NCBI GenBank assembly: GCA_001899305.1
Contig: MKWL01000001.1
Coordinates: 682,001-746,000, forward strand
DNA length: 64,000 nt
Direction of reading: 5' to 3'
DNA from: Thiobacillus sp. 0-1251
Lineage (GTDB): Bacteria; Pseudomonadota; Gammaproteobacteria; Burkholderiales; Thiobacillaceae
In this document: positions 17,227 to 20,086 of the stretch, piece after piece
How the letters are laid out: each line of letters opens with the position of its first letter
Numbering within the stretch: the stretch's first letter is position 1
Program-made: the position numbers and the translations under genes
The notes under the pieces: generated by a model
The model's database searches: none
What the model saw: only the letters and a program-made list of their open reading frames with translations
Told to the model about the DNA's origin: nothing

Positions 17227-17247
17227 CTTTATGGACGGGTGCACATC

Positions 17248-18771
17248 ATGTGCGGGGTAATCGGAGTCGTTTCCAATTCGGCGGCCAATCAGCTTTTGTA
17301 TGACGGACTGATGGTGTTGCAGCATCGCGGCCAGGACGCGGCAGGCATCGTGACGGCGGAGGAAAGCCGTTTTCACATGCACAAGGGGCAGGGGCTGGCG
17401 CGCGATGTCTTCCGCACGCGCGACATGCGTAACCTGCTGGGCGACATGGGGGTGGCGCACGTACGCTATCCCACCGCCGGAAGCGCGTCGTCGTCGGCCG
17501 AGTCGCAGCCGTTCTACGTGAATTCGCCCTACGGCATCGTGCTGGGGCACAACGGCAACCTTACCAACACCCACGAACTCAAGGAATCGCTGTTCCGTTC
17601 CGACCTGCGTCACGTCAACACCAACTCGGATTCCGAGGTGCTGCTGAATGTGCTGGCGCATGAACTGCAGGTACGTGCTTCCGGGCGGCAATTGAATCTG
17701 GACACGATCTTCGGTGCCGTGTCGGGCGTGCATGCGCGCTGCAAGGGCGCCTATGCCGTGACAGCCTTCATCGCCGGCTACGGCCTGCTGGCTTTCCGCG
17801 ATCCCTACGGTATCCGGCCGCTGGTGATCGGGGTCAACGATCAGGTCACGCCGCACGAATACATCGTCGCGTCGGAGAGTGTGGCGATCGATACGCTGGG
17901 CTTCCGGCTGCTGCGCGACGTGGCCCCTGGCGAAGCGGTGTTCATCGATTACCAGCGCAAGCTGCACAGCCGCCAGTGCAGCGACAAGGCGGTGCTCAAT
18001 CCCTGCATTTTCGAGTATGTGTATCTCGCCCGCCCCGACTCGGTGATGGACGGCGTTTCGGTCTACAGCACGCGCCTGGCCATGGGAGAATCGCTAGCCG
18101 AAAAGATCAAGCGCGAATTCTCCCACCTGAAGATTGACGTGGTCATCCCGATTCCCGACACCAGCCGGCCCTCGGCGCTGCAACTGGCGAATCATCTCAA
18201 CGTGCCGTACCGTGAAGGCTTCATCAAGAACCGTTACATCGGCCGCACCTTCATCATGCCGGGGCAGGCGCTGCGCAAGAAGTCGGTGCGGCAGAAGCTC
18301 AACGCCATCGGCGAGGAGTTCAAAGGCAGGAACGTGCTGCTGGTCGACGATTCCATCGTGCGTGGCACCACCAGCCGCGAGATCGTGCAGATGGCGCGCG
18401 ATGCCGGCGCCACCAAGGTGTACTTTGCCTCGGCCTCGCCGCCGGTGCGTTACTCCAACGTGTACGGCATCGACATGCCGACGCGCAACGAACTGATCGC
18501 CAATGGCCGCAGCGACGAGGAAATTGCGCGCGAAATCGGCTGCGATGCGCTGATCTACCAGGATATCGATGCCATGGTTGCGGCAGTCAGGGCGGGCAAT
18601 CCGGCGATCCCCGATTTCGATACCTCATGCTTCGACGGCCGCTACATCACGGGCGACGTCACGCCGGAATACCTGAATTACGTCGAAGCGGTGCGCAACG
18701 GTGAAACACCGCCGCCTTCGGCCCTGTCGACACAGCAACTCGACCTTAACCTGGCGACGAATAATGGTTGA
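17248..18771 (+). CDS. purF: Amidophosphoribosyltransferase
   Basis: PurF, 507 residues, first step of purine synthesis: glutamine plus PRPP to phosphoribosylamine. The start was set at MCGVIGVVSN because Cys2 becomes the N-terminal nucleophile of the glutaminase domain; there is no propeptide. The PRPP-binding motif VLLVDDSIVRGTTSREIV is at about residues 364-381. Length matches the proteobacterial enzyme. It ends the folC-dedD-cvpA-purF run and is followed by a regulatory leader for metZ. Confidence 0.98.
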   Translation: MCGVIGVVSNSAANQLLYDGLMVLQHRGQDAAGIVTAEESRFHMHKGQGLARDVFRTRDMRNLLGDMGVAHVRYPTAGSASSSAESQPFYVNSPYGIVLGHNGNLTNTHELKESLFRSDLRHVNTNSDSEVLLNVLAHELQVRASGRQLNLDTIFGAVSGVHARCKGAYAVTAFIAGYGLLAFRDPYGIRPLVIGVNDQVTPHEYIVASESVAIDTLGFRLLRDVAPGEAVFIDYQRKLHSRQCSDKAVLNPCIFEYVYLARPDSVMDGVSVYSTRLAMGESLAEKIKREFSHLKIDVVIPIPDTSRPSALQLANHLNVPYREGFIKNRYIGRTFIMPGQALRKKSVRQKLNAIGEEFKGRNVLLVDDSIVRGTTSREIVQMARDAGATKVYFASASPPVRYSNVYGIDMPTRNELIANGRSDEEIAREIGCDALIYQDIDAMVAAVRAGNPAIPDFDTSCFDGRYITGDVTPEYLNYVEAVRNGETPPPSALSTQQLDLNLATNNG

Positions 18772-18800
18772 CCGTATCCGGCACCGGGCGTAAATTGTTC

Positions 18801-18852
18801 CCGGCGCCGATTTGAACTTCAGCTTGCGGGCGCTTGATAAATTCGGCTAAAG
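18801..18852 (+). promoter_or_regulatory. Candidate SAM-II (SAM-alpha) riboswitch aptamer, metZ leader
   Basis: The leader of metZ shows the SAM-II layout. A 5-bp stem P1 (GCGCC 18804-18808 with GGCGC 18829-18833) encloses a loop starting GATTTGAAC, and is followed by TTGATAAATTCGGCTAAAG, which matches the conserved UGAUAAAU...GCUAAA tail of SAM-II. The loop segment CTTCAGC (18817-18823) can pair with GCTAAAG (18846-18852) at six of seven positions, the pseudoknot expected of the class. SAM-II aptamers sense S-adenosylmethionine and shut off methionine-synthesis genes, which fits metZ. Recognised by eye, not by covariance model. Confidence 0.75.
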
Positions 18853-18863
18853 CGTCGCTAGGG

Positions 18864-18898
18864 AAACCCCGAACCGCGCGGCCGTTCGGGGTTTTTTT
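18864..18898 (+). terminator. Intrinsic terminator after the aptamer, before metZ
   Basis: A perfect 11-bp stem (AAACCCCGAAC with GTTCGGGGTTT) and a 9-base loop are followed by a run of T. It lies 11 bases after the aptamer and 15 bases ahead of the metZ ATG. It can serve as the expression platform (termination when SAM is bound) and may also end purF transcripts. Confidence 0.85.
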
Positions 18899-18913: not shown

Positions 18914-20086
18914 ATGAACAACGACGAATACGACATCGAGACGCTGGCCGTGCGTGCCGGCACCGTGCGCAGCCAGTTCAACGAACACTCGGAGGCGATG
19001 TTCCTCACCTCCAGCTTCATGTTCGGCAGCGCAGCGGAAGCGGCGGCGCGCTTCAAGGGCGAGCAGCCCGGCCCGATCTACGCGCGCTTCACCAACCCCA
19101 CCGTCAACATGATGGAGACGCGGCTGGCCGCGCTGGAGGGGGCCGAACGCTGCGTGGCGTTCGCGTCGGGCATGGCCGCGATCCTCGCCACCGTGATGGG
19201 TCTGATGAAGGCGGGCGAGCACGTCGTCGCGTCGCGCTCGATCTTCGGTTCGACGGTGCAACTGTTCTCCAACATCCTCGGCCGCTTCGGCATCGAGACG
19301 ACCTATGTGTCGCCGACCGACCCGGCGGAGTGGCGTGCGGCGGTCAAGCCCAACACGAAGCTGTTCTTCGTCGAGTCGCCTTCGAATCCGCTCACCGAGG
19401 TCAGCGACATCCGTGCACTGGCCGACATCGCCCACGCGGCCGGCGCATGGCTCGCGGTCGACAACTGCTTCTGCTCGCCGGCGCTGCAGAAGCCGCTCGA
19501 ACTCGGCGCCGACATCATCATCCATTCCGCCACCAAGTATCTCGACGGGCAAGGGAGAGTGCTCGGCGGCGCCGTGCTGGGCAGCCAGGCGCTGATGGAA
19601 GGCGTCTACACCTTCCTGCGTACCGCCGGGCCGACGCTCTCCGCGTTCAACGCCTGGGTGATCCTGAAGGGCATGGAGACGCTCTCGCTGCGCATGGAGG
19701 CGCATTCGAAGAATGCCCTGGCGCTGGCGCGCTGGCTGGAAGCCCGGCCGGAAGTGGCGCGTGTGTGGTATCCCGGCCTGCCCTCGCACCCGCAGCATGA
19801 ACTGGCGATGGCGCAGCAGAAAACCGGCGGCGGGATCGTGTCGTTCGAGCTCAAGGGCGGCAAGGATGCCGCCTGGAAGCTGATCGACGCGACGAAGCTG
19901 CTGTCGATCACCGCCAACCTGGGCGACACCAAGACCACCATCACCCATCCGGCCACCACCACCCACAGCCGCATGACGCCGGAGCAGCGCGCTGCGGCCG
20001 GCATCGGCGACGGGCTGGTGCGCATCGCGGCGGGGCTGGAGTCGGTGGCCGACATCCAGGCCGATCTGGCACGCGGGCTGGTATGA
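18914..20086 (+). CDS. metZ: O-succinylhomoserine sulfhydrylase
   Basis: MetZ, 390 residues, a PLP enzyme of the Cys/Met metabolism family that makes homocysteine directly from O-succinylhomoserine and sulfide. It begins DIETLAVRAGTVRSQFNEHSEAMFLTSSF-type sequence characteristic of MetZ; the PLP lysine is Lys208 in SATKYLDGQGRVLGG, and SSTTIT-like THPATTTHSRM is near the C-terminus. Direct sulfhydrylation suits a sulfur-metabolising organism. Expression is likely controlled by the upstream riboswitch/terminator. Confidence 0.95.
   Translation: MNNDEYDIETLAVRAGTVRSQFNEHSEAMFLTSSFMFGSAAEAAARFKGEQPGPIYARFTNPTVNMMETRLAALEGAERCVAFASGMAAILATVMGLMKAGEHVVASRSIFGSTVQLFSNILGRFGIETTYVSPTDPAEWRAAVKPNTKLFFVESPSNPLTEVSDIRALADIAHAAGAWLAVDNCFCSPALQKPLELGADIIIHSATKYLDGQGRVLGGAVLGSQALMEGVYTFLRTAGPTLSAFNAWVILKGMETLSLRMEAHSKNALALARWLEARPEVARVWYPGLPSHPQHELAMAQQKTGGGIVSFELKGGKDAAWKLIDATKLLSITANLGDTKTTITHPATTTHSRMTPEQRAAAGIGDGLVRIAAGLESVADIQADLARGLV

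Follow-up and report, generated by a model that had tools for sequence, protein, structure and literature searches.

The window analysed here is a 64,000-nucleotide (nt) stretch of the 3.66-Mb genome of Thiobacillus sp. 0-1251 (G000:C1:682001-746000 in our numbering, G000 being the window's own genome), and the element under study lies in the leader of metZ, which encodes O-succinylhomoserine sulfhydrylase. The interval between the end of purF (18771) and the start of metZ (18914) holds a promoter, an aptamer (18803-18854), an intrinsic terminator, and a T-run. We consider it probable that this leader is a SAM-II riboswitch that would be OFF at high S-adenosylmethionine (SAM) through the terminator, with the tail of the aptamer acting as antiterminator. 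An earlier reading made from the letters alone (hereafter the sequence-only reading) had proposed a SAM-II-type element with a terminator ahead of metZ, and what it gave for P1, the tail, the terminator, and the spacings proved correct; the letters of P1, the loop start, the P2 strand, the tail, the terminator, and the ATG were all confirmed. The principal features are the following.

17239..18771, + strand: purF, amidophosphoribosyltransferase, the upstream neighbour (TIGR01134, 519.7 bits, cut-off 350)
18768..18796, + strand: sigma-70-type promoter (TTGACC 18768-18773, 17-base spacer, TAAATT 18791-18796)
18803..18834, + strand: aptamer helix P1 and inner loop L1 (GATTTGAAC...), 18803-18808 with 18829-18834
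18814..18822, + strand: G18814 and G18822, covarying homopurine positions (G-G or A-A together in the family)
18824..18828, + strand: pseudoknot P2b 5' strand UUGCG (alignment positions 27-30 invariant, 31 covarying with 47)
18839..18854, + strand: tail AAATTCGGCTAAAGCG, 3' strand of the pseudoknot and SAM site, assigned from conservation; proposed antiterminator strand
18864..18898, + strand: intrinsic terminator, stem 18864-18874/18884-18894 (11 base pairs, bp), loop 18875-18883, T-run 18892-18898
18875..18884, + strand: CGCGCGGCCG, terminator loop and first base of the 3' arm; proposed partner of the tail (18844-18848/18880-18884, 18852-18854/18875-18877)
18914..20086, + strand: metZ, O-succinylhomoserine sulfhydrylase, 390 aa (NF006003, 720.8 bits, cut-off 522; TIGR01325, 606.9 bits, cut-off 510.05)

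P1 consists of the 5-bp stem that had been read from the sequence, GCGCC (18804-18808) with GGCGC (18829-18833), extended by a G-U pair (18803/18834); the loop starts with GATTTGAAC at 18809, and the tail TTGATAAATTCGGCTAAAG spans 18834-18852. The pseudoknot core P2b (18824-18828 with 18844-18850) forms 5 of 5 standard pairs, with U18848 and G18845 bulged. The 11-bp terminator stem, with a predicted energy of -19.5 kcal/mol for the terminator alone, begins 11 bases past the end of the tail (18852) and is followed by the T-run and then by the metZ ATG at 18914, as previously described; measured from the end of the aptamer (18854), 9 bases lead to the terminator and 59 to the ATG. A promoter scan returned this single sigma-70-type site, compared to 0.1 expected in shuffled sequences, and its -35 box is overlapped by the purF stop codon. 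Transcription is predicted to start near 18803, at the P1 5' strand, and from there should be independent of purF. The identity of the downstream protein as MetZ is confirmed by the NCBIfam matches, and its best solved relative is 9iqh, an O-succinylhomoserine sulfhydrylase (E 1.1e-170).

Within the 301 nt searched around the leader, RF00521 (SAM_alpha) was the best Rfam match and a full-length one, at 28.5 bits against a 36-bit cut-off; the covariance-model check suggested by the sequence-only reading therefore found the expected family, but below a gathering score that is a database threshold rather than a structural feature. Weak RF00521 matches mean little alone, because control genomes also match at loose thresholds (14 of 14 named genomes at E ≤ 10, 3 of 14 at E ≤ 0.05, and 0 of 14 at E ≤ 0.01). 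The window site is the best RF00521 match of the whole genome (E 2.7e-4, the next being 0.11). The second model suggested, SAM-V (RF01826), gave nothing: it was not among the 14 Rfam matches at E up to 10 in the same 301 nt. This bears on the idea that the element represents another pseudoknotted SAM class, such as SAM-V, or senses another ligand, e.g., S-adenosylhomocysteine (SAH), which we judge very unlikely. P2a is short here, and a helix of 2 bp is given for SAM-V as opposed to 5 bp in 60% of SAM-II in a paper that also describes the two classes as near-identical in SAM binding (PMC6061858); yet it is RF00521 that matches best, SAH riboswitches (RF01057) were found separately at two family loci (L171 and L188), and a base pair predicted for SAM-II, between alignment positions 31 and 47, is kept.

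We also used a model, R1, made from 47 distinct leaders that are all relatives of the window, with 62 positions and P1 as its sole structure. Its seed set (A1) was picked by a pattern requiring GCTTGC and GCTAAA, and these letters are invariant by construction. Across 300 Burkholderiales genomes (the window's own included), R1 matched 240 at E ≤ 0.01 and 205 at E ≤ 1e-6, while RF00521, run on these 300 genomes, exceeded its cut-off in 51, for instance at sites shared with R1 in G135, G051, and G200. The betaproteobacterial copy that had been singled out as worth recording is thus real, but it is not rare, and a probable counterpart, metXZ, was published in 2014. In wider draws, again with G000 included, R1 matched 101 of 184 class-drawn genomes at E ≤ 0.01 and 32 of 249 phylum-drawn genomes at E ≤ 1e-6. 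In genomes of other classes, which we take for alphaproteobacteria, R1 at E ≤ 1e-6 recovered nine sites scoring 56-67 bits with RF00521, in 9 of 48 RF00521-positive genomes (G556, G655, G666, G692, G576, G635, G619, G687, and G677). That each model recovers sites of the other favours a single family made up of separate branches. Four further sites in another class show the reverse profile, with R1 at 68-73 bits and RF00521 at 31-36 (G522:C1:10576, G530:C1:2499278, G699:C8:327165, and G717:C75:75317), and could possibly reflect transfer of the beta-type element.

The structure of the family was examined in an alignment (A4) of 110 matches, 106 of them distinct, chosen by R1 score. All six P1 pairs change on both sides across the 106 distinct rows, with 96.4% of cells paired, although these counts lean toward structure, the alignment having been fitted to P1. 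Over all 13 pairs, 95.5% of cells are paired, compared to 87.4% in shuffles and 28-48% when the pairing is slid, and 0 of 500 shuffles matched the observed covariation. P2b is paired in 98.2% of family cells, with positions 27-30 invariant in 105-106 rows (rows chosen by R1 score), but this pairing says little alone because four of its five pairs hardly vary. The remaining one, 31-47, does covary (GC 85, AU 4, UA 1, UG 1, other 5), with position 48 bulged. Ranked by mutual information, positions 17-25 come first, followed by the P1 pairs 7-36 and 6-37 and then by 31-47; neither 17-25 nor 31-47 had been built into R1. Positions 17 and 25 carry the same purine in 102 of 105 rows (G-G 86, A-A 16), a level reached in 0 of 10,000 shuffles, and are G-G in 29 of 29 other-class loci. 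The outer helix P2a is weak in the family, where its two pairs are formed in 86.1% of cells; 22-58 covaries (UA 31, AU 25, UG 13), and 25 of 101 rows, the window included, leave it unpaired. Four positions that we take to contact the ligand, mapping them from the SAM-V paper cited above and from the SAM-II structure, are near-invariant among the rows selected by R1 (position 28, U in 105 of 105; 51, U in 100 of 101; 52, A in 101 of 101; 53, A in 100 of 101).

One of these signals has a counterpart, and another a possible one, in what Barrick and Breaker predicted for SAM-II. As worded there, a Watson-Crick pair joins the last base of the central loop to a downstream base, adjoining C-G and G-C pairs with the intervening base bulged, in connection with P1a (PMC2258182), and 31-47 with position 48 bulged fits this wording. 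The same text describes a homopurine G-G/A-A pair within the bulge that separates P1 from P2 (PMC2258182). Positions 17-25 form a pair of this type, but position 25 sits between P2a and P2b, and we do not claim 17-25 as theirs. The conservation check in related leaders proposed by the sequence-only reading accordingly came out in its favour, with P1 and the pseudoknot both kept and P1 covarying. What it had named as evidence to the contrary was the joint lack of a covariance-model match and of such conservation; because both were required, its assignment to SAM-II stands, and it is further backed by RF00521 as best match, by kin exceeding the cut-off in Burkholderiales, and by the covariation of P1 and 31-47. 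Taken together, these results point to a SAM-II riboswitch, probably a SAM-sensing one, in the metZ leader. Membership of the window copy in the class is well supported, and SAM-II is common and under-called in this lineage.

It could also be argued that a purF terminator and a random SAM-II-like string happen to adjoin here, with no regulatory role. The sub-threshold Rfam score agrees with this, as does the distribution among named metZ loci, where the full motif occurs in 29 of 80 and a partial one in 2 more (L078 and L083), with the contigs of L054, L075, and L109 too short upstream to judge. We give this explanation next to no probability: R1 matches recur in most Burkholderiales genomes, the covariation exceeds that of every shuffle, a promoter of its own is conserved between purF and the element, and methionine genes lie downstream. 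Of 31 metZ loci with the motif, 30 have this promoter ahead of it (TTGA box, 17-18-base spacer, loosely defined -10), the contig of the 31st being cut off, and the distance from the end of the -10 box to GATTTG is 11-14 bases in 27 of the 30 and 23-24 in L076, L081, and L098. As for the genes, we oriented 113 loci, 10 of which came from searching with the metZ protein and 103 from searching with the RNA. The longest downstream frame in the 103 RNA-found loci fell into the metZ cluster in 58, that of metX in 13, of metH in 7, and of metK in 3, and was identified as metF in 1 and as metN in 1, i.e., a methionine gene in 83 of 103, or in 80 of 100 after removing three duplicates (a removal that is incomplete, with at least one pair, L144/L191, remaining). 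The other 20 are unassigned, some having their longest frame on the wrong reading (e.g., L139, L189, and L199). Representatives were named by NCBIfam, for which MetN and a truncated MetH fall below curated cut-offs and MetF passes one of two. These downstream genes are the ones that would be expected under a SAM sensor.

The sequence-only reading had also asked how binding could change termination when aptamer and terminator do not overlap, and here the family offers a testable answer, in that the tail tends to complement the 5' half of the terminator. Under this scheme, the transcript would begin with the aptamer. In the SAM-bound state, the tail GGCUAAAGCG would be held in the pseudoknot, the terminator would fold, and transcription would stop about 95 nt in, before metZ; with SAM absent, the free tail would form a helix with the apical region of the terminator, whose formation would be delayed or blocked, and the polymerase would read into metZ. 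SAM as the ligand, OFF as the direction of control, and the step of antitermination are all inferred, the last being the least certain of the three.

The terminator itself is a family trait, which agrees with the proposal of a terminator platform controlling metZ. In a survey of 189 rows (187 with GCTAA, some sites appearing twice), 131 of the 172 distinct sites are followed within 110 nt by a hairpin with a T-run, and many family terminators contain GCUUUAG or a variant of it, complementary to CUAAAGC in the tail. We compared 115 distinct tail-terminator pairs (spacer ≤25) with 717 further terminators taken as controls from these loci and from the window, the fold limit being 50 bases for the controls and 60 for the real terminators. 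The duplex between the tail and the terminator 5' half averages -10.9 kcal/mol, compared to -7.7 with shuffled 5' halves and -7.9 with the 717 controls, and TTTAG occurs in 30 of the 115 family terminators vs. 8 of the 717. Individually, 45 of 115 pairs reach p ≤ 0.05, 22 of them at the floor of 0.01. Matched tails outdo permuted ones (0 of 5000 permutations), and in 73 of 115 pairs the own tail does better than the other tails do on average. Some altered tails come with altered partners, namely UAAACG/CGUUUG in L035 and UAAAACG/CGUUUUA in L221 and L223, with no terminator called in the latter two. Folds of the growing window transcript, computed without pseudoknots, place the antiterminator helix in the minimum-energy fold at 18886 and 18890 and the terminator by 18894. 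Overall, tail-terminator complementarity makes a fair case for the family and a weak one for the window copy.

A number of observations weigh against this reading as a whole. No Rfam family reaches its gathering score anywhere in the 64-kb window, and the copy studied here lies 7.5 bits under the RF00521 cut-off. R1 at E ≤ 1e-6 misses 39 of the 48 other-class RF00521-positive genomes, the strongest included. The outer helix P2a is poor in the window, where one of its two pairs forms (C18820-G18854) and U18819/U18855 are unpaired. The folding energy of the 111-nt leader is ordinary compared to shuffles (z -0.45), in a folding without pseudoknots that is uninformative here, and the terminator is absent from a consensus terminator scan, which considers loops of 3-8 bases as opposed to the 9 of this loop. 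As to the antiterminator, 70 of 115 tail-terminator pairs fail p ≤ 0.05 singly, the window pairing (-9.6 kcal/mol) is non-significant alone (p = 0.33 vs. shuffles), and of the altered tails that have a terminator (14), 9 form a poorer duplex with their own terminator half than the consensus tail does, and 5 a better one. The sequences are moreover related, and the family statistics overstate their independence.

In a competing view, aptamer and terminator are real and are coupled without any tail-terminator antiterminator, for instance through the proximity of the pseudoknot to the terminator. Another such route would be a helix formed by L1 (CGAUUU) and L3 (AAAUnCG); we understand in this sense the second conformation proposed by Leyn et al., in which regions 1 and 2 are the partners of region 5 (PMC4239095). 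The window p-value and the altered tails are what this view would lead one to expect, and we hold it to be a serious contender, though with odds clearly short of even, the complementarity at the level of the family speaking against it. The L1-L3 helix in particular lacks covariation, because position 12 stays G (103 of 106 rows) as 47 changes with 31, and we rejected it. Two antiterminator candidates were also set aside. A UUCGG (18843 onward)/CCGAA pairing is present in the window, and the base before CGG varies among relatives, as judged by eye. For a CGGG/CCCG pairing with a P1 strand, CCCG is frequent but is retained at loci with a changed loop strand (L027 and L025), again judged by reading. 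L224, considered as another altered tail with an altered partner, has a terminator half that prefers the consensus tail.

Returning to the SAM-II assignment with a tail that doubles as antiterminator, the family shares with RF00521 the P1 helix, the GAUUUG loop start, the UUGC/GCUAAA pseudoknot, a pair joining the tail to the final base of the loop, methionine genes, and a terminator. It differs in a P1 that is mostly GCGCC/GGCGC, a short P2a, and a tail reading GCUAAAGCG instead of GCUAAA-AGGCC. A further difference concerns the strand complementary to the terminator, which in the other-class RF00521 loci is the P2a strand (AGGCCGG etc.), whereas here it would be the SAM-binding strand itself. 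Among other-class loci above 65 bits with RF00521, 28 of 30 were located and 25 terminators called, and duplexes of the terminator 5' half with the tail past GCUAAA came to between -11.8 and -21.9 kcal/mol, values obtained on longer tails and with no control. The antiterminator logic may thus be shared with these loci in a shifted register.

Several published elements are close to this family. In the account given by Leyn et al. in 2014, SAM_alpha was reported only from alphaproteobacteria (PMC4239095). Their metXZ element, as described in the same account, resembles our family in occurring in betaproteobacterial metX and metZ leaders, that of Thiobacillus denitrificans metZ included, and in having a pseudoknot of regions 1-4 and 2-6 with a terminator after it (PMC4239095). 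Judging by gene, organism, and topology, the window element is probably metXZ. A second record, Bp2_Cand287, was noted upstream of methionine genes with purF, metZ, and metX as neighbours, and a cis-acting element was suggested in that report (PMC3521395). In contrast, Rfam files this RNA as a small RNA (sRNA) gene (RF02424, Bp2_287; Bp2_Cand287_SIPHT) and models it on the strand opposite the riboswitch. RF02424 exceeds its cut-off at 3 sites in 16 genomes (203.9, 157.2, and 107.5 bits), and at all three an R1 match lies on the opposite strand (L277:1531-1597, L278:1583-1647, and L279:1531-1561, the match in L279 being partial); metZ-like frames follow in L278-L280, L280 lying below the RF02424 cut-off, and the longest frame of L277 is a wrong reading. 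On the minus strand of the window, this family reaches 23.3 bits against a cut-off of 70. The three records, SAM-II, metXZ, and RF02424, are hence probably linked; among the titles and abstract openings of open-licence papers that we searched, none equates metXZ or Bp2_287 with SAM-II. A comparable arrangement is described in Sinorhizobium meliloti, where SAM-II also precedes metZ with a predicted Rho-independent terminator (PMC9373788). At high SAM, a short RNA goes up and the read-through metZ mRNA goes down in that study (PMC9373788), which differs from our scheme in that promoter activity is described as falling too, and RNAs as being stabilised there (PMC9373788).

A wider reading goes beyond our main explanation, and we assign to it a probability of roughly 0.55: the elements would form a beta- and gammaproteobacterial SAM-II subclass mostly missed by Rfam thresholds, in which the tail GCUAAAGC doubles as antiterminator with the terminator segment GCUUUAGC, which is the same as metXZ and as the opposite strand of RF02424, and which controls metZ, metX, metH, metK, metF, and metN. 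If so, SAM and the terminator would compete for the same bases, metXZ, printed as a new RNA with an unknown signal, would gain a ligand, and RF02424 would be an Rfam sRNA family modelled opposite a riboswitch. The gap between the two Burkholderiales counts would then measure how far SAM-II is under-called in the order, and competition between tail and terminator makes testable the control of a terminator by a SAM-II pseudoknot that does not overlap it.

The genome of the window carries a second copy of the element (L206; G000:C5:6623-6686, L206:1624-1687, minus strand, 41.7 bits) directly before metK. This copy has A-A at 17/25 and a P1 of CCGCC/GGCGG, no T-run hairpin was seen in the metK leader examined, and its control is possibly translational. 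Translational forms may hence exist, which lends something to the suggestion that the window element acts on translation and that its terminator is constitutive; we give this little credence for metZ, where the terminator follows the aptamer and precedes the start codon, and 59 nt separate the ATG from the tail.

Tandem pairs occur at several loci (L010:1505-1567 and 1668-1746; also L119, L124, L125, L133, L202, L182, L161, and L025), in the order of a G-G aptamer and then, within ~200 nt, an A-A copy, mostly of the form GATTTAA..CAACTTGC. The A-A copy has no obvious T-run hairpin after it and precedes a small unknown open reading frame, or the metZ start in L025. Such tandems may combine transcriptional and translational control in series, an arrangement comparable with the SAM-II/SAM-V tandem described for Pelagibacter (PMC2704228, PMC11508383).

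Among named metZ loci, the nearest to the window belong mostly to Thiobacillus and Hydrogenophilales genomes, the top relative being a metagenome bin titled Rhizobium sp., a label that is probably wrong. Several metZ loci without the motif have metZ closely behind purF, as judged by eye. Individual loci depart from the common layout: L071 has kept the terminator and lost most of the aptamer, ~325 bases separate the aptamer from metZ in L038 (1613-1674) and L045 (1614-1675), and the aptamer of L083 is split by ~320 bases (1577-1604 and 1924-1950). At L171 (1501-1561, minus strand), whose downstream gene clusters with metK, the sequence of the aptamer tail (CTAAAGCGGG) recurs in the terminator 3' arm, and tail and 3' arm could there compete for the same terminator 5' arm.
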